A stretch of 64,000 nucleotides of DNA from Solimonas flava DSM 18980 (GTDB lineage: Bacteria; Pseudomonadota; Gammaproteobacteria; Nevskiales; Nevskiaceae). Below are positions 11,115 to 46,676 of this stretch, piece after piece. Location of the stretch: assembly GCF_000426685.1 (NCBI RefSeq), contig NZ_AUFV01000002.1, positions 434,001-498,000 of the forward strand. The letters are read 5' to 3'. The notes under the pieces are model-generated. The model saw only the letters and a program-made list of their open reading frames with translations, was not told where the DNA came from and did not search any database. A program made the position numbers and the translations under genes. Numbering within the stretch: the stretch's first letter is position 1; each line of letters opens with the position of its first letter.

Positions 11115-12329
11115 TCAGGCGGGGCTCAGCTCGATGCAGTCGAAGCGCACGTCCGGGTCGACCTCGGCGTCGTAATCGACGTCGCCGCGCGTGAAGCCGA
11201 ACAGCTTGAGGAATTCCTGCTTGTAGCCGGCGTAGTCGGTGAGCTGGAACAGGTTCTCGGTCGTGACCTGCGGCCACAGCGCCTTGCAGGCGCCCTGCAC
11301 GTCCTCGCGCAGTTCCCAGTCGTCGAGGCGGAAGCGCTGTTCGTCGTCGGCCTGCGGGCTGGCGCCGTCGGCGCGATAGAGGAAGTCGCGGAACAGGCGG
11401 TTGAGCTGATCGATCGTGCCTTCGTGCAGGCCTTTCTCTTTCATGATCTTGTAGACCATGGAGATGTAGAGCGGCATCACCGGGATCGCGGCGCTGGCCT
11501 GGGTGACGACCGACTTCAGCACGGCGACGTTGGCGTGGCCGCCGAGGCTCTGCAGCTTCGCGTCGAGGCGGCGCGCGGTGGCGTCGAGGTCGGCCTTGGC
11601 GCGGCCGAGCGCGCCGTGCCAGTAGATCGGCCAGGTGATCTCGGTGCCGATGTAGCTGAAGGCGACGGTCCGCGCGCCCGGCGCGAGCGCGCCGGCGGCG
11701 GCGAGCGCGTCGATCCACAGCGCCCAGTCCTGGCCGCCCATGACGGTGACGGTGTCCTCGATTTCCTGTTCGCTGGCCGGCTCGACCGAGGCCTGGATGA
11801 TGCTGTCCTTGTTGGTGTCGATCGCGGTGGCCGTGTAGGTCTGGCCGATCGGCTTGAGCGCCGAGCGCTTCACTTCGCCGGTCGACGGCAGCTTGCGCAC
11901 CGGCGAGGCGAGCGAATAGACGACGAGGTCGACCGCACCGCCCATCTCGGTCCTGATCAGCTCGATGACCTTGGCGCGCGCCGCGTCCGAGAACGCATCG
12001 CCGTTGATCGAGCGGCTGTACAGGCCCTGCGCCTTGGCGAACTTGTCGAAGGCCGCCGAGTTGTACCAGCCGGCGGTGCCGGCCTTCTTGTCGGTGCCCG
12101 GCTTTTCGAAGAACACGCCGAGCGTGTCGGCGCCGAAACCGAACGCTGCGGTGATGCGCGCGGCCAGGCCATAGCCACTCGAAGCGCCGATGACGAGCAC
12201 CTTCTTCGGTCCGTCGCGGCGCATGCCGCGCGCGCGGGTCGCCTCGATCTGTTCGAGCACGTTGCGCTCGCAGCCGAGCGGATGCGTGGTGGTGCAGATG
12301 AAGCCGCGGACCTTCGGATGGATGATCAA
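11115..12329 (-). CDS. fabV: enoyl-[acyl-carrier-protein] reductase FabV
   Basis: A 404-residue NADH-dependent enoyl-ACP/enoyl-CoA reductase, the last step of fatty acid elongation; FabV enzymes are intrinsically tolerant of triclosan. The dinucleotide loop GASSGYG is at residues 48-54, and the diagnostic catalytic Y-X8-K is Tyr236/Lys245 ([10 protein letters not shown]). The family normally starts MII(K/H)P. Here that position is a TTG codon at 12329 with a GAGG motif eight bases upstream, so TTG is preferred over the ATG 12 codons earlier. No fabI is visible in the window. Confidence 0.95.
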
Positions 12330-12441
12330 CTTGCGTACCTCGTCGCTGGTTGGGGGCAGCGGCATTCTACTGGCTGCAGCGCCGTGTGCGGGTGGTCCTT
12401 GGGGCGAATCCGGCGTCCGCAGCGACCGGCGGCCAGCCAAG

Positions 12442-12488: not shown

Positions 12489-13466
12489 TCAGGACGGCAG
12501 GAAGTTGATGGGATAGTTGGGGTAGGTGAACGGCGGCACGTTCTTCGGGCCGAAGTTCAGCAGCATCACGCGCTGGATCACCTTGCGCTCGAGGTCGGCG
12601 TCGCCGAAGGTGCTCGACACCAGCTTGCAGTCGGTGACGCTGCCGTCCGGCGCGATCGTCAGGCTGACGACGATCTTGCCGGGGCCGATGCCCGGATTCT
12701 CGCGCATCGCCCGGTTGAAGATCGCGTAGAACGCGCCCTTGTTGCGGTCGAACGTCAGCTGGATCTCTTCGAGCGTGCGACCGGCGAGCAGCTTGTCGCC
12801 GCCCTGGCCGGGTTTGCTGCGGTCGGGGCCGGTGCCGCGCGGGGCTTCGACCGTCGTCGTGCGACGCTGGCCGAGGCCGGCGCCGGACTGCGTGCGGCGC
12901 TCCTCGCCGGTGCCGGTCGCGCCGATGCCGCCGCTGCCGCTGGCCGCGGCCGAGGCGAACGCCGCGCTCGAACCGCCGCTGGCGCCGGTGCCGGCCTGGG
13001 CCGTCACGCGTTCGCTCGACAGCGCGCGCGTCGTGTCGAGGCCGCGCAGCGACTGGTCGCGCAGCTCGGCGAGCTGATCGGCCATCGCCAGCACGCCGGA
13101 CTTCTGCGCGACGGCGCGAGCCTGCGCCTGGCGCTCGGCCTGGGTCGGCTGCGGCGGCGCTTCCGGCTTGTCCTGCTGCGGCTTCTCCGACTTGGCCTGT
13201 TCCTGCGGCGGCTTCTTGCTGTCCTCGGGCGAGGGCTTGGGCTCCTCGACCTGCTCGGCGATCGGCGCGTCCGGCAGGATGCTGACGTAGCGTTGCTCGA
13301 TCGTTTCGCCGCCGCCGCGCTGCAGGCCGGTGAGATGGATCAGCGGGATCAGGATGCCGAGCACGACGAAGATCGCCAGCAGCACGCCGGCGATGCGGCG
13401 GAAGCGGCGGTCGGCTTCGGCGTTGAGATCCCAGCCGTCGAAAGCGGTCACGAAGCTCGCGTTCAC
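12489..13466 (-). CDS. TonB-like protein with AgmX/PglI-type C-terminal domain
   Basis: A 325-residue transducer-like protein, last gene of the nine-gene operon. One membrane segment (about residues 27-46, IAGVLLAIFVVLGILIPLIHL) is followed by a Pro/Lys/Glu-rich periplasm-spanning stretch (70-110), a Ser/Gly-rich linker, and a C-terminal domain (225-325) with the pattern FNRAMRENPGIGPGKIVVSLTIAPDGSV seen in AgmX/PglI domains. It starts at GTG 13466, preceded by GGAGG and overlapping the stop of the upstream exbD (GTGA). In Myxococcus, proteins with this domain link TolQR-type motors to envelope TPR proteins. A role as the periplasmic arm of such a motor is inferred. Confidence 0.85.
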   Translation of the reverse strand: MNASFVTAFDGWDLNAEADRRFRRIAGVLLAIFVVLGILIPLIHLTGLQRGGGETIEQRYVSILPDAPIAEQVEEPKPSPEDSKKPPQEQAKSEKPQQDKPEAPPQPTQAERQAQARAVAQKSGVLAMADQLAELRDQSLRGLDTTRALSSERVTAQAGTGASGGSSAAFASAAASGSGGIGATGTGEERRTQSGAGLGQRRTTTVEAPRGTGPDRSKPGQGGDKLLAGRTLEEIQLTFDRNKGAFYAIFNRAMRENPGIGPGKIVVSLTIAPDGSVTDCKLVSSTFGDADLERKVIQRVMLLNFGPKNVPPFTYPNYPINFLPS

Positions 13467-13969
13467 GGCGCGCCTCCGTTCTTCTTCTCGATCACTGCCA
13501 GCGAGATCTTGGCGAAGCGGGCCTCGGTGCAGGTCGCCATGACCTTCTTGAGAACCTGATACGGAATCGCCTTGTCGGCCATGATGTTGACGTCGCCGCG
13601 CGTCACCGACGCCGCGTCGGCGCCTTCGACGCGCATCAGCGGCGCGCGCAGCAGCTCGGCCTTCAGCGCCGGCAGGAAAGCGGTCGCCGTACCCATGGCC
13701 TCGTCGGTGCCCATCACGCGCACGTTGTCGACGAGGATGTCGTTCTTGCTGACGACGATCACGGGAATCTGCTTCGGCTCTTCCTTGACGACCGACTTCG
13801 GCAGCTGCAGCGACTGCGGGCTCGGCAGCACTTCGACGGCGAGCGCGTTGACCAGCAGGTAGAAGACCAGGATCGCGAAGATGTCGATCAGCGAGACGAC
13901 GTTCATCTCCACTTCGTGGCCGGCGATGCGGAACTTGCGCTGGGCGCGCTTGGCCATGCGCGTTCTCAT
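13463..13969 (-). CDS. ExbD/TolR family protein (second of two)
   Basis: A 168-residue motor protein with a short cytoplasmic N-terminus, one membrane helix (NVVSLIDIFAILVFYLLVNAL, about residues 23-43) and a periplasmic domain. The conserved membrane aspartate that carries protons in ExbD/TolR is present (LIDIFAIL). Start and stop overlap those of its neighbours (ATGA with the upstream exbD, GTGA with the AgmX-like gene), so it is translated in a coupled series. A pair of unlike TolR proteins with one TolQ is the arrangement of the myxobacterial AglRQS motor. Confidence 0.92.
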   Translation of the reverse strand: MRTRMAKRAQRKFRIAGHEVEMNVVSLIDIFAILVFYLLVNALAVEVLPSPQSLQLPKSVVKEEPKQIPVIVVSKNDILVDNVRVMGTDEAMGTATAFLPALKAELLRAPLMRVEGADAASVTRGDVNIMADKAIPYQVLKKVMATCTEARFAKISLAVIEKKNGGAP

Positions 13970-14487
13970 GGCGCACCTCCCGGAGCGTCGCCGAGCGAGA
14001 CGTTCGGGAACATCTCCAGCGGCAGGCCGGCAGCGCGAGCCTCGGCCGGCGCGAAGCGTGCGGCATCCATGATCCGGATCAGATCGTCGTACGGGATGTC
14101 GGCTTCGAGCAGCAGCGTCACGTTCGTTTCGCTGGGCGCGGTCTTCTTGACCTCGACGAGCAGATCGCCGAGCGCCTGCACGTTGTAGCCTTCCGGCGTG
14201 TTGTCGAGATGACGCAGCGCGCCGTTGCGGTCGGAGACGTCGAGGCCGTTCTTGCGCAGCGTGATCGTCAGCTGCAGCGGCAGCTTGTCGGACACGGCCT
14301 GCTGGTCCGGCGACGGCAGATTGAGGTTGATGACGTTGAGCTTGGCGGCGGTGATCGACGAGCTGACGAGCAGGAAGAACACCAGCACCGCGAACACGTC
14401 GATCATCGAGACGATGTTCAGCGACACCGCGCGCGCCCTCATCCTCTGATGGCGTTCGAGGCGCCGCGTTCGGCGGGACATTTTCAT
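13966..14487 (-). CDS. ExbD/TolR family protein (first of two)
   Basis: A 173-residue TolR/ExbD protein with a basic N-terminus (MKMSRRTRRLERHQRMRAR), a single membrane helix with the key aspartate (IVSMIDVFAVLVFFLLVSSS) and a periplasmic domain ending PAEARAAGLPLEMFPN. It differs clearly from the next ExbD, so the pair is not a recent duplication. It lies 46 bp downstream of the TolQ-type channel gene, with an ATGA overlap to the following exbD. It probably combines with the channel and the second ExbD to form one stator (inference). Confidence 0.92.
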   Translation of the reverse strand: MKMSRRTRRLERHQRMRARAVSLNIVSMIDVFAVLVFFLLVSSSITAAKLNVINLNLPSPDQQAVSDKLPLQLTITLRKNGLDVSDRNGALRHLDNTPEGYNVQALGDLLVEVKKTAPSETNVTLLLEADIPYDDLIRIMDAARFAPAEARAAGLPLEMFPNVSLGDAPGGAP

Positions 14488-14533
14488 CCGGAACCCCCGG
14501 TGAGACTGGGCCGTGACAACGGCAGGGGCGGGA

Positions 14534-15163
14534 TTACTTGCGCGCGGCGGCGCTGACGAACTTCGCGCAGGCGGCTTCCAGGCTGTCGACGAGTTCGGTC
14601 GTCTTGGCCTGCAGCCAGGCGTGGACGAGCAGCGTCGGGATCGCGACCAGCAGGCCGAAGGCCGTGCAGTTCATGGCCTCGGAGATGCCGCGCGACAGCA
14701 GGTCGGCCTTTTCCGTCGGGTCGGCGTTGCCGAGCGCCGCGAAGGCGCCGATCAGGCCGATGACGGTGCCGAGCAGGCCGAGCAGCGTCGACATGTTCGA
14801 GAACGTGGCGAGGTAGTGCGTGCGCTTTTCGACCGCCGGCAGCACTTCCATCAGCGCTTCCTCGGTGGCCGTCTCCACTTCGTTGCGGTGCGGATCGACC
14901 TTGGCCTGCGCGGCGCCGGCGGTGAAGATGCGGGCGACGGCCGCGTCGGAGCCCGAGGCGAGCTGTTCGACCGTGGCGAGATCGCCCTTGGCCAGCAGCG
15001 GCACCGCGTCCTGCCAGATCTTGCGGTTCTCGCGCTCGACGCGGCTCAGGAACAGCCAGCGTTCGATCGCGATGGCGACGCTCAGCGCCAGCACGATGGC
15101 GATCGGGTACATCATGAAGCCGCCCTTCTGGAAGAAGTGCAGGATGGTCACAAAGAAATCCAT
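14534..15163 (-). CDS. MotA/TolQ/ExbB proton channel family protein
   Basis: A 209-residue inner-membrane channel subunit. There are three hydrophobic segments: near residues 13-32 (GGFMMYPIAIVLALSVAIAI), around 120-145 (TFSNMSTLLGLLGTVIGLIGAF) and near 165-185 (ISEAMNCTAFGLLVAIPTLLV). The GLLGTVIGLI and AM..TAFGLLVAIP blocks are the family signatures. It couples proton flow to movement of the ExbD proteins. It starts the motor part of the operon, 74 bp after a small exported protein gene. Confidence 0.93.
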   Translation of the reverse strand: MDFFVTILHFFQKGGFMMYPIAIVLALSVAIAIERWLFLSRVERENRKIWQDAVPLLAKGDLATVEQLASGSDAAVARIFTAGAAQAKVDPHRNEVETATEEALMEVLPAVEKRTHYLATFSNMSTLLGLLGTVIGLIGAFAALGNADPTEKADLLSRGISEAMNCTAFGLLVAIPTLLVHAWLQAKTTELVDSLEAACAKFVSAAARK

Positions 15164-15237
15164 GTTGCGTTCCCTCGAATGGTCAGTCGTTACAAATGTC
15201 TCTTGTACAGCCAGTCTTCCCTGATCAGGCTGCGCCG

Positions 15238-15621
15238 CTAGCGTGCCACAGGCGTCACCACGCCCTTCTTCTTCAGTTCCGCCGCGAGCACCTCGTAGTA
15301 CTCGACCTGGCGGTTGAATACGACACGGTCGATCGGCACCGGTTTTTCTTGCAATAGCCGCGCCGGCCGGTCGATGTCCTTCTCGGCCCGCGCATCGCGC
15401 CAGGGCATGATGTAGAGGCCGATCGGCGACTCGCGTTCGCCGAAGATGGTCGTGCCGCCGCCCTCGGCGTGCGGCGTCAGCGTCTCCGGCTTGGCGACGA
15501 CCGGCTTGTCGCCGCCGCCGCCGATCGCCGGCATCTCATCCTGGGCCGATGCGCTTGCGGATGCGGCCAGCAGCGCGAGTCCCAGCAGTGCCGGACCCGG
15601 CCGTACGAACAGGGATTTCAT
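15238..15621 (-). CDS. small exported protein of unknown function
   Basis: A 127-residue protein with a clear signal peptide (hydrophobic core ALLGLALLAASASASA, cleavage likely after AQ near residue 27). The mature part is short and polar, with a Gly-rich patch (GGGGDK) and a C-terminal helix-like segment (VEYYEVLAAELKKKG). No family is recognised. Its ATG overlaps the stop of the TPR lipoprotein gene (ATGA), so it belongs to the motor operon and presumably works in the periplasm with the TPR proteins (inference). Confidence 0.72.
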   Translation of the reverse strand: MKSLFVRPGPALLGLALLAASASASAQDEMPAIGGGGDKPVVAKPETLTPHAEGGGTTIFGERESPIGLYIMPWRDARAEKDIDRPARLLQEKPVPIDRVVFNRQVEYYEVLAAELKKKGVVTPVAR

Positions 15622-16292
15622 GGCGTCTTCTCCACCGGCGCGACCGCGGCGGGAGCCGGGGCCGGGGTCGCGGCCTTGAGCCGGGACTCCAGCTCGGCGA
15701 CCCAGGCCATCACGCGCAGGTCTTCCTTGCCGGTCCGCGACTGGTATTCCTTGTACTGCGCCAGCGCCGCCTGCGGCTGCTTCAGGTACTGGTCGAGCAG
15801 GATCGCGTAGTTGAGGCGGGCGAGGGGATCGCCCGGATCGGCCTGCAGGGCCTTTTCGTAAGCGAGCCTGGCGCGGTCGTAGCTGCCGGCCTCACGGTTG
15901 AGGATGCCGAGCCAGTTGAAGGCGGCGGCATTGGCTGGGTTCAGCGTCGCGGCGCGCGTGAAGGCGTTGATCGCGGCGTCGCGGCGCTTGGACTTCGCGT
16001 AAAGGATGCCGAGGTTGGTCCACGGCCCGGAGAACTGCGGGAAGTCCTTGGTCAGCGCCGTGAGCTCGGTTTCGGCCTGCTGCGCGTCGTTGTTCTTCAT
16101 CAGCTCGAGCGCGGCGTCGAAGCGCTGCTGCGGGTCGCCCTTGTCGGCGACCGGCGCCGACGGCTTGGCGGCCGGTGCGGGCTTGGCGGCCGGACGTTCC
16201 GGCTGCGTCGGCGCGCTGCCGCAGGCGGCCAGCCCGAGCACGGGCACGGCCAGCAGCGCGGCGCGCAGGAGGCGCTTACTTGAGGCTTTCAT
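15618..16292 (-). CDS. TPR-repeat lipoprotein
   Basis: A 224-residue lipoprotein with lipobox LAAC (Cys24) and a Pro/Ala/Lys-rich linker, then tetratricopeptide repeats (about residues 55-190, for example PWTNLGILYAKSKRRDAAINAF and AAFNWLGILNREAGSYDRARLAY). It is a likely outer-membrane-attached partner of the TolQR-type motor. The layout recalls AglT/GltE, a TPR lipoprotein of myxobacterial gliding machines, but this is a resemblance in architecture only. The start overlaps the end of the large TPR gene by 17 bp. Confidence 0.82.
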   Translation of the reverse strand: MKASSKRLLRAALLAVPVLGLAACGSAPTQPERPAAKPAPAAKPSAPVADKGDPQQRFDAALELMKNNDAQQAETELTALTKDFPQFSGPWTNLGILYAKSKRRDAAINAFTRAATLNPANAAAFNWLGILNREAGSYDRARLAYEKALQADPGDPLARLNYAILLDQYLKQPQAALAQYKEYQSRTGKEDLRVMAWVAELESRLKAATPAPAPAAVAPVEKTP

Positions 16293-19182
16293 AACGGTCC
16301 TGGCCCTGCTCGTGCTTGCCGTACTTGGCCGGCGCCAGCGCGGCGAGCTGCTGGGCGCTCTTGGCGATCCACTCGTCGTAGAGGCCCTGGCCGATGCGGC
16401 GCAGGTTGGTCTCGTAAGTCTGGATCGCCTTCTCCTCGAACGGATAGGCCTGTTCTTCGAGCAGCAGGTTGTACTGCTCGATCTCGAGTTCCGATAGCTT
16501 CTTCGGCCGCTCCGAATCGAGCAGCGCGCGGCCGAAGCCCTGATACAGGCGGCCGGTCTCGTAGGTCGCCGCCGTCGTCACGTCGGCGTAGCCATAGCTT
16601 GCCGACTTCTCGAACCAGGCCAGCGCCTGCTCCATCGCCTGCTTGCGGCGCGGCAGACTCTTCTCGACTGGCGCCGACAGCACGATCGCCTGGGTATCGG
16701 CGGCGGCGACGCGACCGAGTTCGAGGCTGGCCTTGGCGGCCAGCGCCTTCGAGCGTTCGGTGGCGCGCGCGCCGGCGCCGTCGCTGACGGCAACCTGCTC
16801 GCGCAGTGCCGCGGACAGCTGCTGCGGATTGCCGGCGGTGCGGGCGTAATCGACGAGCCGGCTGCGGGCTTCGACGTTGCGGTCGAAGGCGGCCGGGAAG
16901 CTCTTCACGTAGAACTCGTAGGCGGCCGCCGCATCGGTCGACTGGGCTTGGTCGTAGAGGCTCGCCGAACGCCAGGCCGCTTCCTCGCGCGTCTCGGTGC
17001 TCTCGCTCGCGCGGCGGGCGATGCGGCCGTAGGCCTGCGCCGCGGCCTGCGGCTTGTGATCCTTCTCGTAGGCGACCGCCAGCTTCTTGTCGACGTCGGC
17101 CTCGAGCGCGTGATTCGGGAACAGGCTGCGGAAGTTCTCGAGCACCACCGCCGCGTGCGACCAGTCCTCGAGCGCGAGCAGCGCGGCGGCGCCGTCGTAC
17201 TCGGCGGTCGCACGGATCTTGGCCTGCGGCGTGACCTGGCCGACGCGCAGGAAGTGCTGCGCCGCGGTGTTCAGGTCGCCGGCGTTGCGCGCGGTTTCGC
17301 CCTGCTTGTAGATCGAGGCGGCGAGCTGCTCGATCACGTCGGCGCGCTGCGGCGCGCCGGCCGGCGTCAGCTTGAGTTCTTCGGCGAACGCGGTCTCGGC
17401 CTGCGCGTAACGGTCCAGCGCGAACTGTGCGTCGCCGGTGACGCTCCAGGCGATACGGCGCTGCTCGGCGGTGACGTTGCCGCCGGCCTTGATGACGCGC
17501 TCGGCGACGGCGATCGCCTGCTCGTAATCCTTCAGCTCGTACAGATCCTCGGCGGTCTGCGTCAGCACCGCGTTGCGCTGCGCGTGCGCCGGGTAGGTGT
17601 CGGCGAGCTTGAGGCTCTCGGCGATCGCCAGCTTCAGTGCTTCCGGACGCTGCGTCGCCGGCACTTCCTTGGCGTATTTCTGATACGCGAGCACTGCGGC
17701 GTAGGCCGCTTCCGGCGCCTTGACGTGCGGACGGTAGCCGTAGGCGGTCTTGCTGTACTCCTGCGCGGCTTCCAGCGTGTGGCCGCCGTCGAGCAGGGCG
17801 TCGCCGAGCAGGAAGTTGATGTCCGGCAGCTTGGCGTCCTGCGGGTACAGCTCGATGATGCGGCGGTACGACTGCGCGGCGGTCAGGAATTCCGCCGGCG
17901 GCGCTGCGGCCGCAGCGTTCGGCGTCCGGGCCTGCGCCTGCTGCGCGGCGGCGAGCTTCTGCTGGGCCATCGCGTGGTAATACTTGGCGATGTCCTCGAG
18001 ATGCGCGCGCAGCGCCGTCATCACCTCCGGCGTCGCCGGCTGGCCCTGCCAGTACGGCGCCGACGGATCGTAGGCTGCCGCGTAGCGCTCCTTTTCCTTG
18101 ATCGTCAGCTCAGTGAAGCCGCCCTGCTCATAGGCGGCGATCACGCGAGTCTGGAAGCCGGGCGCCAGCGGCGAGCCCGGATAGCGCTGGATGAACGCGG
18201 CATTGGCATTGGCCGCGTCGGTATAGCGCGATTTTTCGAGCAGCGCGTCGCCGAGCGCGATGTACAGCAGCGGATAGAAACGCGGGTCGCCGTGGCGCGC
18301 GAGGTAGTCGTTCAGCGCCGGCCCGCCGCCGAGCGTGGTCAGCGACAGCGTGACGACGCGCAGCGCGTCCTTGGCCAGATCGTACTTTTCCTTGGCGACG
18401 CCGTTCAGCGCGGCTTCCGGATCAGTGGTCTCGCCGGCCGGCAGCTCGCGATCGAGGATGTCGAAGAAGGTCGCGATCGCCGGCTCGTACTTCGACTGCT
18501 TGTACAGCGCCCAGCCGTACTTGTACTGCGCCGGCACGAAGAACGGCGTGCCGTCCTTCAGATCCATGACCGTCTTGTATTCGAGCTCGGCTTCGCCGTA
18601 GCGGGTTCGCGCGAACAGCAGCTCGGCGCGGCGGAAATGGGCGTCGCCGGACAGGTTGGAATCGGGCAGGCGCTCGTTGAGGCGCTTGAGCGTGTCGATC
18701 GCCGCGTCGGTCTCGCCGATGTTCTGCTGCGCGCGGGCCAGCTGGTAGTAGATCCGATCGTTCTTCGGGTCCTGCGGATGTGCATACAGCAGCTCGTTGT
18801 AGAGCTTGATCGACTCGCGCAGGTTCTTCTCGGATTCCTGTGTCGTGCCGCTGGCGTCGGCCATCTGCACCTGCAGGTCGGCGAGGCGCCGCGTCGCTTC
18901 GTTGCGCGTGTCGGCATCCGGCTGCAGTTCGAGCAGCTTGCGATAGTTGTCGGCGGCCTTCTGCGCGTCCGGCGCGACGTCCTCGGACTGGATGACCGGC
19001 AGGACGTTTTCGTCCGGGGCCTTCTGCTTGCCGATCGCCTGGCGGATCGGTGGCGCGGAGTCCTTGACGACCTGCGGCGTACAGGCCGACAGCGCCAGCA
19101 CTGCCTGCGCGACGGCGGCGAGCACAAACAGCGGACGGGTCGGGAAACGATGCGGGCGGGCCGCTCTGCGATTGGCGTTCAT
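16276..19182 (-). CDS. large TPR-repeat lipoprotein
   Basis: A 968-residue exported protein with an N-terminal hydrophobic stretch and lipobox LSAC (near residue 34), followed by many degenerate tetratricopeptide repeats over nearly the whole length (for example ADNYRKLLELQPD, RIYYQLARAQQNIGETDAAI and AEDLYELKDYEQAIAVAERV). The ATG at 19182 is chosen; a GTG four codons earlier, overlapping the previous stop, is an alternative. The size and repeat content suggest a scaffold spanning the periplasm or lying on the outer membrane. It is one of three TPR proteins in the motor operon. Confidence 0.83.
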   Translation of the reverse strand: MNANRRAARPHRFPTRPLFVLAAVAQAVLALSACTPQVVKDSAPPIRQAIGKQKAPDENVLPVIQSEDVAPDAQKAADNYRKLLELQPDADTRNEATRRLADLQVQMADASGTTQESEKNLRESIKLYNELLYAHPQDPKNDRIYYQLARAQQNIGETDAAIDTLKRLNERLPDSNLSGDAHFRRAELLFARTRYGEAELEYKTVMDLKDGTPFFVPAQYKYGWALYKQSKYEPAIATFFDILDRELPAGETTDPEAALNGVAKEKYDLAKDALRVVTLSLTTLGGGPALNDYLARHGDPRFYPLLYIALGDALLEKSRYTDAANANAAFIQRYPGSPLAPGFQTRVIAAYEQGGFTELTIKEKERYAAAYDPSAPYWQGQPATPEVMTALRAHLEDIAKYYHAMAQQKLAAAQQAQARTPNAAAAAPPAEFLTAAQSYRRIIELYPQDAKLPDINFLLGDALLDGGHTLEAAQEYSKTAYGYRPHVKAPEAAYAAVLAYQKYAKEVPATQRPEALKLAIAESLKLADTYPAHAQRNAVLTQTAEDLYELKDYEQAIAVAERVIKAGGNVTAEQRRIAWSVTGDAQFALDRYAQAETAFAEELKLTPAGAPQRADVIEQLAASIYKQGETARNAGDLNTAAQHFLRVGQVTPQAKIRATAEYDGAAALLALEDWSHAAVVLENFRSLFPNHALEADVDKKLAVAYEKDHKPQAAAQAYGRIARRASESTETREEAAWRSASLYDQAQSTDAAAAYEFYVKSFPAAFDRNVEARSRLVDYARTAGNPQQLSAALREQVAVSDGAGARATERSKALAAKASLELGRVAAADTQAIVLSAPVEKSLPRRKQAMEQALAWFEKSASYGYADVTTAATYETGRLYQGFGRALLDSERPKKLSELEIEQYNLLLEEQAYPFEEKAIQTYETNLRRIGQGLYDEWIAKSAQQLAALAPAKYGKHEQGQDRYESLK

Positions 19183-19186
19183 CGTG

Positions 19187-21004
19187 TCAGTCACGGCCGA
19201 GCTCGCCCTTCTGCTGGCGATCGTACAGGCGCGCCAGCGCGAAGCGCGCCTCGATCAGATAGCGTTCGATCTGCTTGCGCTGGCCTTCGAGTTCTTGCGT
19301 CGCCATGTCCTGCAGCAGCTGCGCCTGCGCGCCGCCGGCGACGCCGAGCTGTTCGCGCAGATTGCCGACGCGGGCCTTCAGCGCCAGCGTGCGCTCGTAC
19401 GGACCGTTGAAGCGGGCGGGCGGTGCGGCGAGCGCGAGCGGCGGCAGGTGCGGCGCCGCCGGCGCAGTCTTGGCCGCGTAGCGGCCGGGGACGGCGAGAT
19501 GCGTATCGAGTCGCAGCGTCGCCTTGGTGCCGGCATACGGGAGCTCGGTGTCTCGCAGCGCACGGCGTACGAGCTCGTCCGCATTGCCCGGCGCCTTCTC
19601 GGTCGTCAGGTAGCCGCGCTCGATGCCGTCCAGGCGCGAGCGCCAGGTCTCGAGATTGCGCGACATCATGCGCAGGTCGCGGTAGTTCTTCAGCGCCTCC
19701 TGGAAGCGATGCTCGGCGAGCAGGCTTTGCAGGAAGTAGGTTTCCGGCGCATCCGGCAGGTCGCGCAGCTTCCAGTCCCAGCCGGCCTCGGAGTCGAGGT
19801 CGCGGCGCACGATCGTTTCGACCATGCGGCCCTGCTTGATCGAGGCCATCGCGGCGTTCATGCGCTCGCGGCTGGTCTCGAGCACCTCGACCGCCTTCTC
19901 ATAGTACTGCAGCGCCTGCGTGTGCGCGCCGAGCTGGTCGAGCGTGTACGGAATCGCCAGCCAGGCTTCCTGCACGGCGGGGTCCATCGGATCGCGCGAG
20001 ATCAGCTCGACCCATGCGACCAGCGCGCGGCGCAGCGCCGCCTCGGTATCCGGATCGCCGCTGCGCAGGCGGAACGAGCGCATGCCGGCGCGATCGAAGA
20101 CGTCGCGGTCGAGATAGCCGGGGCGGATCAGGACGCCGAGCGTCGAGAACGAGGTGTAGGCCCGCGATTCCGGGGCCTTGTCGTCCGGCGTTTCCGATTT
20201 CTGGATGCGCGAACCCTGCGGGGCCAGTTCGGCCCAGCCGAGGCCGAGCAGCGCCCGGTTCGAGAACGGTCCGTCGACGCGCACGCGGCTCAGCACCGGC
20301 TTGGCGGTGCCGCCCTGCTGCGTCTGCAGGAAGTGCCAGCCGAGCGTGAGATTGGCGCGGTCGCGCAGCGCCAGGTCTTCCTCGTTGCCGGGGCGCAGCG
20401 TGCCGACGCGGTCGAGCACGGTCTGGCCCTGGGCGGTGCGGCCGTCATTGAGCAGCGCGATGCCGAGGTTGTAGCGCGTGAACGGCGACTGCTTGGAGGC
20501 GTTGTCCTCCTTGAGCAGCACGTCGGCGGCTTCACCATAGCGGCCTTCGGCCATCAGCACGCGCGCCAGCAGATCCTGCCAGTCCGGGATCAGTTCCGGC
20601 GCCAGCTTCTCGCGGATGCGGTACAGCGTGGCGCGCGCCTCGGCGTTGTAGCCGCGCTGGAAATCGAACTCGCAGAGCCGCAGCTGGGCGCGGGCGACGT
20701 CCTTGGCGTTGCCGCCGGAGGCGGCGACGCTGCGATAGATCGCCTCGGCGCGATCGCGCATGCCGAAGCCGAGGTAGTTGTCGGCCGTGCGCCACTGGAA
20801 TTCCAGCGGCATCTTCAGCGGGTCGGTCCCGCCGGCGAGCTGGCGCAGTTCGACCAGCGCCGAGAAATGGCGCTTGTCGTTGTCGAGGTAGCGCGACAGC
20901 CGGACCTGCGGATCGTCGGCGCTGCCTTCCTTATAGATTTCCACCGCGGAAGCGGCGAGCGGCAGCAGCGCGGCGAAGGCGGCGAGCGGGAACAGGCGCT
21001 TCAT
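19187..21004 (-). CDS. exported TPR-like protein
   Basis: A 605-residue periplasmic protein with a signal peptide (LFPLAAFAALLPLAASA) and helical TPR-like repeats (GFGMRDRAEAIYRSV, RYNLGIALLNDGRTAQGQ and LEYYEKAVEVLE-type segments). The start is taken at the ATG at 21004 because it overlaps the stop of the preceding gene (ATGA); an upstream in-frame start is less likely. No enzymatic motif is seen. It is the second gene of the motor operon and a probable structural partner of the large TPR lipoprotein. Confidence 0.8.
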   Translation of the reverse strand: MKRLFPLAAFAALLPLAASAVEIYKEGSADDPQVRLSRYLDNDKRHFSALVELRQLAGGTDPLKMPLEFQWRTADNYLGFGMRDRAEAIYRSVAASGGNAKDVARAQLRLCEFDFQRGYNAEARATLYRIREKLAPELIPDWQDLLARVLMAEGRYGEAADVLLKEDNASKQSPFTRYNLGIALLNDGRTAQGQTVLDRVGTLRPGNEEDLALRDRANLTLGWHFLQTQQGGTAKPVLSRVRVDGPFSNRALLGLGWAELAPQGSRIQKSETPDDKAPESRAYTSFSTLGVLIRPGYLDRDVFDRAGMRSFRLRSGDPDTEAALRRALVAWVELISRDPMDPAVQEAWLAIPYTLDQLGAHTQALQYYEKAVEVLETSRERMNAAMASIKQGRMVETIVRRDLDSEAGWDWKLRDLPDAPETYFLQSLLAEHRFQEALKNYRDLRMMSRNLETWRSRLDGIERGYLTTEKAPGNADELVRRALRDTELPYAGTKATLRLDTHLAVPGRYAAKTAPAAPHLPPLALAAPPARFNGPYERTLALKARVGNLREQLGVAGGAQAQLLQDMATQELEGQRKQIERYLIEARFALARLYDRQQKGELGRD

Positions 21005-21567
21005 TGCGCGGCCCTCCACTGCTTCATCGTCAGTCGCGGGCGGCCGCCGAAGCGGCTCTCGCGGCTGATGACGAACTCGACGTCGGTCGCCTGCGCCGAC
21101 TTGTCGATCGTCGTCTCGTAACGGTCGGTGAGCAGCGGGTCGCTCGGCTTGGCGTCCGCGTACTTGCCGGTGAAGCTGATGCGCAGCTTGTGCGGGCCGG
21201 GATCGGCCGACACGCGCATCAGGCGCTGCAGGCTGTTCTTGCCGAGGATCGCGCGCGCGTCGAATTCATCGTAGTGATAGACCTCGGCGGGGCGGTCATC
21301 GAGCGCGACGGTGACGTCCTGCAGCAGCAGGCCGCCGGCCTTGACGCTCAGATAGACGTTGAGCCGGTCATAGGCGGGCAGCAGCGCGTCGACTTCGACG
21401 GACGCGGCCTCGCTGTTGAACTCGAGCACCTCGTCCTTGAGGGCCTGCACGGTTTGGTCGAGCTTGATCGCCTGCTCGCTGAGGTCCGCCGCGGCGGCCG
21501 CAAGGGGCAAGCTGCACGCGAGCACGAGGCTCGCGCCTAGGGCCTTCAGGCCTCGAGTTCTCGGCAT
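21001..21567 (-). CDS. exported protein of unknown function, first gene of the motor operon
   Basis: A 188-residue protein with a signal peptide (ALGASLVLACSLPLAAAA) and then a short helical stretch (residues 30-55, QAIKLDQTVQALKDEVLEF) leading to a beta-rich domain (NVYLSVKAGGLLLQDVTVAL ... PHKLRISFTGKY). No family is recognised. The frame is open 117 codons upstream, but that part is not protein-like and includes the likely promoter, so the ATG at 21567 is chosen. It overlaps the next gene by ATGA. The position at the head of the operon suggests an envelope component. Confidence 0.75.
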   Translation of the reverse strand: MPRTRGLKALGASLVLACSLPLAAAAADLSEQAIKLDQTVQALKDEVLEFNSEAASVEVDALLPAYDRLNVYLSVKAGGLLLQDVTVALDDRPAEVYHYDEFDARAILGKNSLQRLMRVSADPGPHKLRISFTGKYADAKPSDPLLTDRYETTIDKSAQATDVEFVISRESRFGGRPRLTMKQWRAAQ

Positions 21568-23945: not shown

Positions 23946-23961
23946 CGTGCGCGCATCGGCG

Positions 23962-24729
23962 ATGGATCGCTCGAAGGCCGGCCGGCATGTGCTGGCGCTG
24001 GCCGCATGGCTGGGCTGGGCGCTGCCGGCGGCCGCGCAGTCCGACAGCCTGGGCAAGGCGCTCGATACCGCGCAGCAGGCGCAGCGCTCCGCGGTCGCCT
24101 CGCAGCAGCGCGTCGATCAGCTCGACGACCAGACGCGCGCGCTGCTCGAGCGCTATCGCGCGGCGACTTGGCAGTCCCAGCAGCTGAACGTCTACGCGCA
24201 GCAGCTCAATGAACTGCTCGCGCAGCAGGTGACGGAGATTCAGAGCCTGCGTGCGCAGCTCGCCGATCTCGATCGCGCTGGCGAGGACCTGATGCCGCTG
24301 ATGCTGCGCATGACCGACAGCCTCGCGCAGTTCGTGTCGCTGGACCTGCCGTTCCTCGGCGACGAGCGCCGCGAGCGCCTGGCGAATCTGAAGCGGGCGC
24401 TCGGCGACCCGCAGGTCAATGCCGGCGAGAAATTCCGCCGCATCCTCGAGGCCTATCAGGTCGAGATCGATTACGGCCGCGCGCTCGGCGTCGAGCGCGT
24501 CGAGATCGGACCGGAGACCGTCGACATGCTGCGCGTCGGGCGCGTCGCGCTGTACGCCCTGGCGCCGGATGGCAGCCGCCCGCGCATCTGGAACGCCGCG
24601 TCGAAGCAATGGGACGCCTTGCCGCGCGGTGACGCGGCGGCGATCCGCGAGGGATTGAAGATGGCCCGCGAGCTGACGGCGGCGAACCTGCTGCAGCTGC
24701 CGGTGCCGGCCGCGCGGAGCGCGCCATGA
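23962..24729 (+). CDS. DUF3450 periplasmic coiled-coil protein of the TonB2-type operon
   Basis: A 255-residue exported protein with a signal peptide (HVLALAAWLGWALPAAA) and then a long coiled coil (about residues 30-110, rich in Gln: DTAQQAQRSAVASQQRVDQL). A globular part with EIDYGRALGVERVEIG and TVDMLRVGRVALYAL, characteristic of DUF3450, follows. A GTG five codons earlier (23947) is an alternative start. The gene overlaps the TtpC-like gene by ATGA. In Vibrio-type TonB2 clusters a DUF3450 protein precedes TtpC, as here, which supports a periplasmic accessory role. Confidence 0.88.
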   Translation: MDRSKAGRHVLALAAWLGWALPAAAQSDSLGKALDTAQQAQRSAVASQQRVDQLDDQTRALLERYRAATWQSQQLNVYAQQLNELLAQQVTEIQSLRAQLADLDRAGEDLMPLMLRMTDSLAQFVSLDLPFLGDERRERLANLKRALGDPQVNAGEKFRRILEAYQVEIDYGRALGVERVEIGPETVDMLRVGRVALYALAPDGSRPRIWNAASKQWDALPRGDAAAIREGLKMARELTAANLLQLPVPAARSAP

Positions 24730-26099
24730 AGCGTCTCCAAGCGTTGATGGTGGCGGGCGCGCTGCTGGTCGGCGCCACGCCGGTCTCGGCGGCGGAGCCG
24801 GCGAACGGCCTCGATGCCTTGCTCAAGCAGGTGCAGGACGCCGCCGGCCAGAACGCGCGCCTGAATCAGGAGCGCGAGCAGCGCTTCCTGCGCAACAAGA
24901 ACGAGCAGGCCGCGCTCGTGCAGAAGGCGGAGGCCGAGCTGGCGGCCGCCAAGGCGCGCGCCGACGCGGTGCGCGTGCGCTTCGCCGCCAACCAGAAGGA
25001 AATCGCCGAGCTGAAGACGCAGCTGCAGGCGCGTGCCGGCGATTACGTACAGGTCCAGGGCGCCGTCAAGGAAGCGGCCGGCGCGTTTCGTGCCGTCGCC
25101 GTCGAATCGCCGATCAGCGCGCAGGCGCCGGACCGTCTTGCCACGCTCGACGCGCTCGCCGACCGCGACGGCTATCCGCCGGTCGCCGAGCTCGAGCGCT
25201 TCTGGTACGGCCTGCAGCAGGAACTGGTCGAGGGCGGCCGCGTGGCGCGCTTCACGGCGCCGGTCGTCGATCCGGACGGCCAGCGCGCCGAGCGCGAAGT
25301 CGTGCGCATCGGCAGCTTCGGCGCCTTCGCCGACGGGCGCTATCTGGTCTTCGACGCGCAGGCGAACGTCCTTGCCGAGCTGACGCGCCAGCCGGCGCGG
25401 CACTGGCGCGCGCTGGCGCGCGACTTCGCCGCAACGCGCGACGGTCTTGCGCCGGCGATGATCGATCCGTCGCATGGCAGTCTGCTCGCGCAGGAAGCGC
25501 TGCGGCCGGGACTCGCCGAGCGTATCCATCAGGGCGGTTCGATCGCCTACGTCATCATCGCGATCGGTGCCGCCGGCGCGATGCTCGCGCTCTACCAGCT
25601 CGTCTATCTGCTGCGGGTCGGCGGACAGGTGCGCGCGCAGCTGCGCGACATCGGCCGGCCGCGCACCGACAATCCGCTCGGCCGCGTGCTTGCCGCGTTC
25701 CGCGGCGATCCGGCCCAGGGCATCGGCGACGCCGAGGTCCTGGAACTGCGTCTGTCCGAGGCGATCCTGCGCGAGATTCCCGCGCTCGAGCGCTTCCAGC
25801 CGCTGCTGCGCCTGATCATCGCCGCCGGCCCGCTGCTGGGGCTCGTCGGTACGGTCACCGGCATGATCATCACCTTCCAGGTGATCCAGGAGCAGGGCGC
25901 CGGCGATCCGCGCCTGATGGCCGGCGGCATCTCGCAGGCCATGATCACGACCGTGCTCGGCCTCGGCGTCGCCGTGCCGATGCTGTTCGTCAACGCGATC
26001 CTTTCGGCGCGCTCGCGCGTGCTCGTGCAGATCCTCGACGAGCAGAGCGCCGGCCTGCTCGCACGGCACATCGAGAGCGGAGCGGCCGATGCGCCTTGA
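24726..26099 (+). CDS. ttpC: TtpC-like long MotA/TolQ/ExbB protein
   Basis: A 457-residue protein: signal peptide (residues 1-22), a periplasmic coiled coil (about 30-115, Ala/Glu/Arg-rich), a globular segment, and then a C-terminal ExbB-type channel domain with three hydrophobic helices (SIAYVIIAIGAAGAMLALYQ, then LLGLVGTVTGMIITF and MITTVLGLGVAVPMLFV). This long layout is that of TtpC, the fourth component of Vibrio TonB2 systems. It joins the ExbB, ExbD and TonB that follow. Its start overlaps the DUF3450 stop (ATGA). Confidence 0.88.
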   Translation: MKRLQALMVAGALLVGATPVSAAEPANGLDALLKQVQDAAGQNARLNQEREQRFLRNKNEQAALVQKAEAELAAAKARADAVRVRFAANQKEIAELKTQLQARAGDYVQVQGAVKEAAGAFRAVAVESPISAQAPDRLATLDALADRDGYPPVAELERFWYGLQQELVEGGRVARFTAPVVDPDGQRAEREVVRIGSFGAFADGRYLVFDAQANVLAELTRQPARHWRALARDFAATRDGLAPAMIDPSHGSLLAQEALRPGLAERIHQGGSIAYVIIAIGAAGAMLALYQLVYLLRVGGQVRAQLRDIGRPRTDNPLGRVLAAFRGDPAQGIGDAEVLELRLSEAILREIPALERFQPLLRLIIAAGPLLGLVGTVTGMIITFQVIQEQGAGDPRLMAGGISQAMITTVLGLGVAVPMLFVNAILSARSRVLVQILDEQSAGLLARHIESGAADAP

Positions 26100-26616
26100 G
26101 TGGTTGTTCGCGCCGTTCGGTTCGGTTTCGGCGCTGATCGAGGCCGGCGGCTGGGTGCTGCCGTGGATCTTCGTCACCGCGCTGCTGATGTGGACGCTGA
26201 TCGCCGAGCGCTGGTGGTACTTCCGGCGCATCTATCCGGCGCAACGCGAAGCGCTGCGCGCGCAGTGGCTGGAGCGCGCCGAGCGACGCTCGTGGGGCGC
26301 GCGACAGATTCGCGCGATGCTGCTGTCGCAGGCGCAGGTGGCGATGAGCGCGCCGCTGCCGCTGCTGCGCGTGACGGTGCCGATCGCGCCGCTGCTCGGC
26401 CTGCTCGGCACGGTCACCGGCATGCTCGAAGTCTTCGACGGCATGATGATCAGCGGCTCGGCCGACGCGCGAACCATGGCCTACGGCGTCTCGCACGCGA
26501 TGATCGCGACGCTGGCCGGCCTGGTCGTCAGCGTCAGCGGCATGTATTTCCTGAATCGCTTCCAGACCCGCGTGCAGCGCGAGGCGGAACGCTTCGGTGA
26601 CGAGCTGGTGTTCTGA
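26089..26616 (+). CDS. exbB: ExbB/TolQ family protein
   Basis: A 175-residue proton-channel subunit, short for ExbB, as is usual for ExbB2. It has an N-terminal membrane segment (GGWVLPWIFVTALLMWTLI) and the signature helices APLLGLLGTVTGMLEVF and MIATLAGLVVSVSGMYF. The coding region overlaps the TtpC-like gene by 11 bp, so translation is coupled. It should form the channel with ExbD downstream to energise TonB-dependent outer-membrane transport. Confidence 0.93.
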   Translation: MRLEWLFAPFGSVSALIEAGGWVLPWIFVTALLMWTLIAERWWYFRRIYPAQREALRAQWLERAERRSWGARQIRAMLLSQAQVAMSAPLPLLRVTVPIAPLLGLLGTVTGMLEVFDGMMISGSADARTMAYGVSHAMIATLAGLVVSVSGMYFLNRFQTRVQREAERFGDELVF

Positions 26617-26618
26617 GC

Positions 26619-27029
26619 ATGCGCACGCGCCGCCACACGCACCCGCCCGAGGAAACCGGCATCGATCTCGCGCCGATGCTGGACTTCGTGCTCAACCTGC
26701 TGATCTTCTTCATCATCACCAATACCTTCGTGTCGGAGGCCGGCATTCACATCGAGCGCCCGGTCGCCAGCACGGCGGTGCGCCAGGAGCGCAGCAATGT
26801 GCTGGTCGCGATCGCGCCGAACGGCGAGGTCTGGAGCGACGGCCAGCGCGTCGACATCCGCGCGCTGCGCGCGCATCTGCAGAAGCGGCGTCAGGAGAAT
26901 CCCAACGCGGCGGTGATCGTGCAGGCCGATCGCGACGCGCGCGCCGGCCTCGTCGTCGAAGCGATGGACCAGGCGCGGCTCGCCGGCTTCAAGAACGTGG
27001 CGATTGCCGCCACGCCGGCCGCGAAGTAA
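26619..27029 (+). CDS. exbD: ExbD family protein
   Basis: A 136-residue ExbD with the membrane helix DLAPMLDFVLNLLIFFIITNTF, including the conserved proton-carrying aspartate, and a periplasmic domain with RAGLVVEAMDQARLAGFKNVAIA, typical of the family. It begins 2 bp after the exbB stop. It is distinct from the two ExbD/TolR proteins of the minus-strand operon. Confidence 0.95.
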   Translation: MRTRRHTHPPEETGIDLAPMLDFVLNLLIFFIITNTFVSEAGIHIERPVASTAVRQERSNVLVAIAPNGEVWSDGQRVDIRALRAHLQKRRQENPNAAVIVQADRDARAGLVVEAMDQARLAGFKNVAIAATPAAK

Positions 27030-27041
27030 GGAGCAGCGGCC

Positions 27042-27779
27042 ATGACGGCCCGCGCCGCGATCGCCGAAGCCCGCTGGTCGCGCCTGATCGTGCCGCCGCT
27101 GCTCGGCCTCGTCGCGGCGCTGCTGCTGTTCTGGGCGATGTACCGGCTGATCCAGCCGCCGGCGCATGAGGGCACGGCACTGCGCACGAGCGGTCCGATC
27201 GAGGTCGTGGCGCCGCCGCCGGCGCGCGACGAGCCGCCGGATACCGCGCTGGCCCAGGCGCCGGCGCCGGCGCCGGATGCGCCGCCATCGCTCGCGCGTC
27301 CGGATCTGCCGTCGCTGCCGGCGGCGGCGATGGCCGCCGCGCCGCTCGACGTCGGGCCGATCTCGGTGCCGGTCACGCTCGGCGCCGGCGGCCTGTCGAT
27401 CACCGGCACGACCGGCTTCGCGGGCTTCGCGGGCCGTGGCGGCGGCGGTGGCGGCAATGGCACGGGCGGCGCCGGCTTCGGTAGCGGGCAGGGCTTCAAG
27501 GGCAAGCCGCTGGTGCCCTTGTCGACGGCGCGCCCGCAGATGCCGGACTGGGCCTGCAAGCAGAAGATCCGCGGCTGGGTCGAGGTCGTGTTCACGGTGA
27601 TGCCGAACGGCCGCGTCCGCGACGTACGCCTCGTTGACGCCGATCCGAAGGGCGTGTTCGAGGCGGCGGCGATCGAGAGCATCTCGAACTGGATCTACGA
27701 ATCGAGCGACGTCGCGCGCGAGGTCAAGCAGCGCGTCGACATGCTGCCCGAAGAATGCGCCTACAACTGGAAGCAGTGA
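27042..27779 (+). CDS. TonB family energy transducer
   Basis: A 245-residue TonB-like protein: one N-terminal membrane segment (LIVPPLLGLVAALLLFWAMY), a Pro/Ala-rich spacer (about residues 45-95), a Gly-rich stretch, and a TonB C-terminal domain (WVEVVFTVMPNGRVRDVRLV ... FEAAAIESISNWIY). A good AAGGAG ribosome-binding site precedes it. The last codons overlap the GTG start of the following TPR-DUF1329 gene. It would couple the ExbB/ExbD/TtpC complex to outer-membrane receptors. Confidence 0.9.
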   Translation: MTARAAIAEARWSRLIVPPLLGLVAALLLFWAMYRLIQPPAHEGTALRTSGPIEVVAPPPARDEPPDTALAQAPAPAPDAPPSLARPDLPSLPAAAMAAAPLDVGPISVPVTLGAGGLSITGTTGFAGFAGRGGGGGGNGTGGAGFGSGQGFKGKPLVPLSTARPQMPDWACKQKIRGWVEVVFTVMPNGRVRDVRLVDADPKGVFEAAAIESISNWIYESSDVAREVKQRVDMLPEECAYNWKQ

Positions 27780-46178: not shown

Positions 46179-46676
46179 ATGAAAAGAATGCTGCTGCCGG
46201 TGGCGATCGTCGTCGCGCTGGCGATCGCCGCAGGCGGATTCCTGATGAGCCGCAAGACCGACCGTTTCGACTACGAGGCGGCCTTCGAGACCGCGCCGCC
46301 GAGCGGCGCGGCCGGCGGCGTGCGGCTCGACCTCAAGACCTTCGCCGGCCGCACCCGCAACGAGGTGCGCCAGGTGCTCGGCGAGCCGCAGCGCTGCGAG
46401 CCGGCCGAGTTCTCCGAACGCTGCCGCTACGGCGGACTCGGCGTCGAGATCACCTATATCGGCGACAAGGCCGACTGGATCACGGTGCCGATGGGCTACG
46501 ACGCCTATCCGCTGCTGCCGCAGACGCTGGCGACGCTCGGTCTGCCGGTGCGCGATCCGGACGAAGTCAGCGAACACGAAAACATCTGGCACGACCTCGC
46601 CGGCTATCGCGAAGTGCGGCTCGTCGGCGGCGATCAGGGAGCGATCTATGCGCGCATCAAAGTGGCCACGCGCTAG
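46179..46676 (+). CDS. membrane-anchored protein of unknown function
   Basis: A 165-residue protein with one N-terminal hydrophobic helix (LLPVAIVVALAIAAGGFLM) and a periplasmic domain with a paired-cysteine segment (GEPQRCEPAEFSERCRYGG) that could form a disulfide. No family is recognised. It overlaps the alpha-2-macroglobulin gene by 29 bp, so it may be co-expressed with the A2M/PBP1C pair (inference). Confidence 0.68.
   Translation: MKRMLLPVAIVVALAIAAGGFLMSRKTDRFDYEAAFETAPPSGAAGGVRLDLKTFAGRTRNEVRQVLGEPQRCEPAEFSERCRYGGLGVEITYIGDKADWITVPMGYDAYPLLPQTLATLGLPVRDPDEVSEHENIWHDLAGYREVRLVGGDQGAIYARIKVATR

Follow-up and report, generated by a model that had tools for sequence, protein, structure and literature searches.

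A nine-gene operon of Solimonas flava DSM 18980, occupying positions 12,489 to 21,567 of the 64,000-nucleotide stretch analyzed here (the window, equivalent to 434001-498000 of contig 2 in a genome of 4.46 Mb and 27 contigs), appears to encode a member of the Agl-Glt core complex, an assignment supported by profile comparisons with Myxococcota. This kind of complex has already been described in Gammaproteobacteria, and the recipe is not new. In the loci that we sampled, the most frequent natural state is the very change that kills the Myxococcus motor, replacement of a transmembrane Asp by Asn in the first of two ExbD-type subunits. Besides, the motor genes have most likely been exchanged as a cassette among close relatives beneath a conserved envelope module, and the small fifth gene probably encodes a distant homologue of GltF/CglF.

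In Luciano et al. (2011, PMC3169522; this and the other papers cited are represented here by the sections accessible to us), the core consists of aglR, aglQ, aglS, gltC, gltD, gltE, gltG and one additional gene, is regarded as the ancestor of the Agl-Glt motor, and is given as a complex of unknown function present in one betaproteobacterium, in Geobacter, in one Fibrobacteres member and in several Gammaproteobacteria, in agreement with the initial annotation of the window, which had stated that relatives of the Agl-Glt machine occur in some gammaproteobacteria. Marinobacter, Saccharophagus degradans and Teredinibacter turnerae are listed there as carrying it. A 2013 paper (PMC3858216) suggested that the core is possibly a basal transport machinery. 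The window operon similarly gathers in a single cluster counterparts of aglR, aglQ, aglS, gltD, gltE and gltG, a gene in the position of gltC and an additional one, but numbers nine genes against the seven plus one of the published core.

The initial annotation, made from the sequence alone, had described these genes as a single unit, and nine open frames are indeed present on one strand (Table 1). Six of the eight junctions overlap, by 4 to 19 bp as called, much as it had claimed, the two others being gaps of 74 bp (g5-g6) and 46 bp (g6-g7); the probable start of g2 is the ATG at 21004, which would give an ATGA junction with g1. Family models match the one MotA/TolQ channel, the two unlike ExbD/TolR proteins and the AgmX/PglI protein that it had named, with 99.5 bits for MotA_ExbB on g6, 64.3 and 58.4 bits for ExbD on g7 and g8 (all Pfam), and 44.5 bits, where the cut-off is 40, for the AgmX/PglI C-terminal domain NF033768 (NCBIfam) on g9. 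Within the g6 family, Thr133, Thr167 and Pro176 are invariant. The exported proteins likewise turn out as described, since Pfam and NCBIfam models for tetratricopeptide repeats (TPRs) match g2, g3 and g4, and a lipobox-like Cys stands close to the N-terminus of the window g3 and g4. The lipobox pattern recurs in 31 of 40 g3 rows and 32 of 39 g4 rows, where several of the misses are badly trimmed starts. Neither g1 nor g5 has a Pfam or NCBIfam match at E≤0.1, and 33 g1 and 34 g5 family members, scanned individually, gave no Pfam match at E≤0.01.

Table 1. Genes of the operon and the gene adjoining it, by position in the window.
Gene	Coordinates	Strand	Description
g1	21001-21567	-	exported 188-aa protein; invariant Leu107, Gly123 and His125 in the domain that follows the N-terminal part; without Pfam model
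g2	19187-21019	-	exported TPR protein, GltC/NfsC position
g3	16276-19194	-	972-aa TPR lipoprotein, GltD-like
g4	15618-16292	-	TPR lipoprotein, GltE-like
g5	15238-15621	-	small exported protein, motif G-x4-P-x6-P-W; probable distant GltF/CglF homologue
g6	14534-15163	-	TolQ/MotA-type channel, AglR-like
g7	13966-14487	-	first ExbD/TolR subunit, AglQ position; Asp30 in window
g8	13463-13969	-	second ExbD/TolR subunit, AglS position; Asp29
g9	12489-13466	-	TonB-like transducer, one transmembrane helix, AgmX/PglI C-terminal domain, GltG-like
FabV-type enoyl reductase	11115-12440	-	directly downstream of g9

The link to the Agl-Glt machine that had been drawn from the sequence holds up, and survives the refuting condition set in the initial annotation, when profiles of the operon's families are compared with other clusters. 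The comparison loci came from Myxococcus sp. CA023, Hyalangium versicolor, Sorangium cellulosum So ce26, the record Comamonas sp. KCTC 72670 and Geobacter sp. AOG1, and the records, mostly Myxococcota, were reached by a scan with an MglA query. The g3 profile scores 204 bits against the GltD-position gene of one Myxococcota locus (L198) and 295 bits against that of another (L209), and the g4 and g9 profiles reach 123 and 66 bits with GltE and GltG of L198, where GltD is named by position and NCBIfam models confirm the identities of GltE (740.8 bits), CglF (145.4 bits) and GltG (1082.9 bits). As to the motor, the g6 profile matches Myxococcota AglR-like TolQ proteins with 138-179 bits; in the AglRQS-type motor L200, the first ExbD is matched with 79 bits by the g7 profile and the second with 113 bits by the g8 profile, and the same pairing, g7 best on the first ExbD and g8 on the second, is found in L200, L203 and L206. 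In a tree of g6, 21 core and 8 AglR-like rows split from 21 other TolQ/ExbB rows (Shimodaira-Hasegawa-like approximate likelihood-ratio test, SH-aLRT, 85, not starred). The window operon has in common with Agl-Glt of Myxococcus the motor, a GltG-like transducer, GltD and GltE, probably GltF and, by position, GltC, but GltA, GltB, GltH, GltI, GltJ and GltK are not part of it, the genome has no MglA match, and the GltD-like g3 has a lipoprotein-like N-terminus, unlike its Myxococcus counterpart.

Two of the comparison records proved to be other than expected. The Geobacter sp. AOG1 locus is a generic TolQ site. The record Comamonas sp. KCTC 72670 (L099), whose genome of 9 Mb encodes MglA at 99% identity and carries clusters of Glt, Nfs-like and Agl-like type, seems to be a Myxococcus-type genome under a wrong label.

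Several observations weigh against membership of the Agl-Glt core. The g2 profile gives weak matches to open reading frames upstream of GltD-like genes as well as to further TPR proteins in those clusters, its similarity to GltC being weak and TPR-dominated; one frame matched in this way upstream of a GltD-like gene scores 207 bits with the GltC family, under the cut-off of 450. The AglR-like rows of the g6 tree were picked by their score to g6, and the AglR grouping is not starred. The outer-membrane barrels GltA, GltB and GltH are absent from the nine operon genes, as are GltI, GltJ and GltK, the genome not having been searched for any of the six, and from the accessible literature on the core complex no phenotype outside Myxococcota came to light. 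Finally, the NCBIfam model tol_pal_ybgF (CpoB/YbgF) exceeds its cut-off on g3 (96.3 versus 90.1, in five stretches); the GltD-position gene of L198 likewise passes this cut-off (107.9).

This last match, together with those of the TolQ and TolR models to g6-g8, could speak for a second Tol-Pal system that stabilizes the outer membrane at division, a reading that we find scarcely credible. The g6 protein reaches 69.9 bits with tolQ against a cut-off of 221, and g7 and g8 reach 33.4 and 29.6 bits with tolR against 127.3, the genome's seven MotA_ExbB matches leave other candidates for an ordinary TolQ, the two ExbD genes are unlike, none of the nine genes is Pal- or TolB-like, and the g6 tree sides with the AglR-like rows. 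More broadly, the operon belongs to the same motor superfamily as Tol-Pal and TonB-ExbBD and follows the logic of a TonB-type transducer, but it departs from both in its two unlike ExbD subunits, its five exported TPR or small proteins and its scores far under the TolQ/TolR equivalog cut-offs. A TonB-type importer, in which g9 would energize TonB-dependent receptors, is also very unlikely. The C-terminus of g9 does resemble TonB_C (22.4 bits, under the Pfam cut-off of 24.6) and the genome contains 36 Plug-domain matches, but the AgmX model fits that C-terminus better and exceeds its cut-off, a separate ExbB-ExbB-TonB operon lies at 24726-27779, and conserved TPR lipoproteins and g5 are not known as parts of Ton systems. 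The neighbouring region 23947-30337 (plus strand) holds a second motor operon of another kind, which encodes DUF3450, two MotA_ExbB proteins, one protein that Pfam leaves unmatched at 1e-5, a TonB-like protein and a TPR-DUF1329 protein, and which we take to resemble TonB2/TtpC-type systems.

The core assignment gains further weight from gene order, which a synteny comparison across Gammaproteobacteria, as proposed in the initial annotation, shows to hold far beyond close relatives. Of 229 genomes sampled evenly across the class, 54, own genome included, score above the cut-off of the AgmX model NF033768. Iterated profiles, rebuilt for g1 and g5 without long read-through frames, were then run on 39 loci, 19 from the same family and 20 class-wide, the latter taken from AgmX matches over the cut-off and not at random. 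All nine genes stand in the same order and on the same strand in 34 of the 39 (17/20 in the class, 17/19 in the family); of the other five, L087 and L090 run into contig ends, L058 lacks g2 at the expected place, g1 went undetected in L066, and L060 consists of g6-g9 only. Among 299 genomes of the phylum, g5 was found in 10, all in the window's class, and among 118 Desulfobacterota genomes it was found in 2, one of which (L303) carries the full nine-gene set in order. Flanking genes recur inside the family only, in the form of FabV/FabI-like and PpiD-like genes; in the window, the PpiD-like gene lies beyond the enoyl reductase of Table 1. In the short flanks of the 20 class loci, no gene recurs beside the operon, so that the neighbours give no hint of a cargo.

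At the proton site, both ExbD subunits carry Asp in the window. Across 38 rows, comprising the window and all 37 sampled loci with g7 (L087, L090 and L097, a second set described below, have none), the transmembrane Asp of g8 is kept in 38/38, while the matching site of g7 is Asn in 27 and Asp in 11. Asn occurs in all 20 class loci, and the 18 family rows divide into 11 with Asp (window included) and 7 with Asn. In four further motors, the g7 site is Asn in L302 and Asp in L295, L298 and L303, with Asp in g8 of all four, and six Myxococcota motors have Asp both at the g7-like site and in the g8-like segments. The Asn site of g7 is that of AglQ Asp28. Counted from ATG, the first ExbD of L200 has 162 aa, the length of AglQ, with its transmembrane Asp at residue 28, as likewise in L201, a second motor type, and a TAF-x-(N/D)-LM segment is common to Asn-type g7 and to the AglQ-like subunits of L200 and L206. 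In Myxococcus, the accessible literature reports that AglQ D28N abolishes proton conductance and motion. The accessible sections of PMC3169522 make no mention of an Asp/Asn split between the two subunits.

The reading of this pattern that we prefer, though we hold it to be a little short of an even call, is that most core motors are rotary machines with a single proton site, in which an obligate g7-g8 heterodimer would turn within the g6 ring, with the titratable Asp in g8 only and the Asn of g7 fixed; AglRQS-type motors would then have a 5:1:1 composition, and the Asp/Asp form, as in the window, and the Asn/Asp form would replace each other as complete cassettes below an envelope module that is itself conserved. 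A possible though doubtful alternative is that g7 is no axle subunit, g8 forming a homodimer in the ring and g7 an accessory whose Asn has no mechanical meaning. An Asp-bearing g8 homodimer would amount to an ordinary 5:2 motor, and PMC9389320 leaves open whether AglQ and AglS each pair with themselves or with one another, but AglQ, the counterpart of g7 by order and Asp28, is needed in Myxococcus, where the D28N motor is dead, and the transmembrane segment of g7 remains strongly conserved in the Asn forms.

The cassette exchange that accompanies the heterodimer reading has its own basis in the trees, whose conflict between motor and envelope makes an exchange of g6-g8 among close relatives the most likely explanation. 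In the motor tree (g6-g8, 38 rows), Asp rows and Asn rows are parted by one branch (99, starred), whereas in the envelope tree (g2 and g3, 37 labelled rows) the Asp/Asn labels need 5 changes, at least 3 of them forced by starred branches. In approximately unbiased (AU) tests on 21 rows, with groups named after the trees had been seen, a topology that unites the Asp rows is rejected on the envelope data (p-AU 2.65e-6), and one that unites L082-L085 with L088, a clade supported by the envelope, is rejected on the motor data (p-AU 6.6e-38). The trees are quick searches, one of them made with FastTree. The tree of g9 requires 3 Asp/Asn changes, 1 of them forced, and suggests that g9 may travel with the motor. 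In the accessible part of PMC3169522, gltDEG and aglRQS are said to co-evolve, which is not so inside the window's family. When the motor tree is rooted on the six Myxococcota motors, the Asn rows form one clade (98, starred); when it is rooted on the Desulfobacterota locus L303, the family Asp rows nest among Asn rows. Asp as the ancestral state was considered and set aside in view of the L303-rooted tree.

The motor and the envelope module are separable within single genomes as well. Contig 1 of the own genome carries a second g1-g5 set (L097), in which a single frame spans g1 and g2 and whose 18-kb stretch is free of TolQ, ExbD and AgmX genes, and the same contig holds none of the genome's seven MotA_ExbB or two AgmX matches. 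We examined 14 second sets in the family, picked from second-best g1 matches, which form one clade (100, starred). Ten have no motor gene in the stretch examined, three have motor genes (L295, L298 and L301, the last with g6 as the only one inside the contig), and L294 is cut by a contig end; the motors of the three fall among the family's Asp-type motors (99, starred). As an envelope module, L097 is comparable to Nfs of the Myxococcus spore coat, which the accessible literature describes as borrowing the AglRQS motor, but unlike Nfs it is also without a GltG/NfsG-like gene in the stretch examined.

The initial annotation had offered g1 and g5 as possible undescribed subunits, a suggestion that stands for g1 but probably not for g5. 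Published work identifies CglF with GltF (PMC4488436), and we regard g5 as a probable homologue of this protein. Members of the g5 family share invariant Gly61, Pro66, Pro73, Trp74 and Arg104 (first-row numbering), and g5 comes next after g4, the GltE counterpart, just as in 22 of 24 Myxococcota clusters CglF is flanked by a GltE-like and a GltG-like gene, the two exceptions being one without a GltE-like match and one that ends before GltG; 20 of the 24 were picked by CglF match. The clusters are kin, so counts over them are not independent. The full g5 profile ranks the CglF frame first in 19 of the 24 clusters and among the top three in 23, CglF making up 12 of its best 15 matches among 3843 frames (best E 4.2e-4), and without the signal peptide the g5-CglF profile-profile score of 16.5 is above all 60 column-shuffled controls (maximum 15.2).

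Other results count against the GltF identity. Once the signal peptide is removed, the g5 profile places CglF first in 4 of the 24 clusters only (median rank 12.5), and hhalign of g5 versus CglF gives 4.8%, compared with 81% when it is included. The g5 alignment found no CglF at E≤0.01 in 117 Myxococcota genomes, 106 of which are matched by the CglF model itself, and it is because this genome-wide search missed CglF that we grade the identity as only probable. Weak matches of the alignment (E 0.017-0.081) occur in 4 of the 117 and, among the matches listed, none falls on a contig of a CglF match. Three g5 proteins gave no match to the NCBIfam CglF model (cut-off 90 bits), and g5 had none among PDB sequences at E≤1.

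Whatever its name, g5 is a near-constant partner of the AgmX protein: 52 of the 229 class genomes have both g5 and AgmX over the cut-off, 2 have AgmX alone (G076, G116), 1 has g5 alone (G067, which contains a weaker AgmX match) and 174 have neither. Twenty-one of the AgmX genomes supplied the profile loci, and in the 33 others g5 is present in 31. The accessible text of PMC3169522 counts gltF (MXAN_4868, 89 aa) among the genes confined to Myxococcales and Bdellovibrionales and places its origin in their ancestor, whereas the window would hold a GltF in g5. A 2022 review cites Faure et al. for GltF being TonB-box-like. A TonB box in g5 was tried and rejected for the box type of this genome, the matrix being drawn from 22 of 25 box-like stretches at 30 receptor loci of the own genome (36 Plug matches overall): g5 does not outscore shuffles, with 2/39 at p<0.05, compared with 0/27 for CglF and 5/38 for the g1 control. 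Adjacent pairs of CglF-like genes in three Myxococcota clusters (L258:10243-11037, L259:10011-11466 and L252:10029-10610) reveal a duplication of the small subunit.

The g1 protein is still unrecognized. It has a match in 33 of 41 genomes, own genome included, and its best match among PDB sequences is a flagellin (E 0.0071), followed by coiled-coil entries; from these weak matches, its N-terminal part is perhaps a coiled coil. A single faint relative of Myxococcus type (21.5 bits) adjoins mglA. The cluster that contains it (L209:4037-13596, in a Myxococcus-type genome) is Glt-like, with GltC/D/E-like genes, a divergent CglF and a GltG-like gene, and begins at 314.0 kb, next to mglA at 313.3-313.9 kb, presumably on the same contig.

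We consider it probable that the operon specifies an autonomous machine of the Agl-Glt core kind that transmits force across the envelope. In the mechanism that we propose, the TolQ/AglR-like g6 would form a ring in the inner membrane, and g7 and g8 a heterodimeric axle driven by proton flow, while the GltG-like, TonB-type g9 would relay the movement through the peptidoglycan to a module of the periplasm and outer membrane made up of g1, g2 at the GltC position, the GltD- and GltE-like g3 and g4, and g5 as probable GltF/CglF. Through cycles of pulling or dragging, g9 would then shift the outer-membrane module, together with a cargo of surface polymer or lipoprotein, laterally or outwards. The data establish the genes with their homology and synteny, the Asp at the proton sites of the window g7 and g8, and that motor and envelope module can be separated; the 5:1:1 stoichiometry, the direction of the force and the surface cargo are what we infer. 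The likeliest task would be to displace, by means of the proton motive force, a lipoprotein module of the outer membrane and the surface material attached to it. Gliding itself is unlikely, because the own genome has no MglA match (faint ones, E 1.2e-4 to 3.0e-4, occur in 4 of the 41 genomes) and the known outer-membrane barrels are not in the operon.

As a special case of such a force machine, we tentatively entertain an apparatus that handles polysaccharide or matrix and spreads surface polymer in the manner of Nfs, the well-studied non-gliding relative that transports the Exo polymer on the spore (PMC3858216). The motor-less second envelope set of the same genome would fit interchangeable cargo modules, but the class loci, as noted, show no gene that recurs beside the operon. 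Elsewhere in the window, the region 46648-52341 (plus strand) encodes a bacterial alpha-2-macroglobulin of 1897 aa with bMG10, A2M and bait-region domains, and a frame of 697 aa lies downstream.

For the force machine of the Agl-Glt core kind, the natural loss of the proton-binding Asp from one subunit, with its retention in the other, makes the question of the AglQ/AglS dimer directly testable. The Asp/Asn family also bears on the stepping of ring-and-axle proton motors and may help to show how they are built. If g5 is GltF, then GltF would be a likely ancestral part of the machine rather than a late addition for gliding. Simple and probably non-gliding bacteria would be where gene deletions could reveal what Agl-Glt machines basically do.

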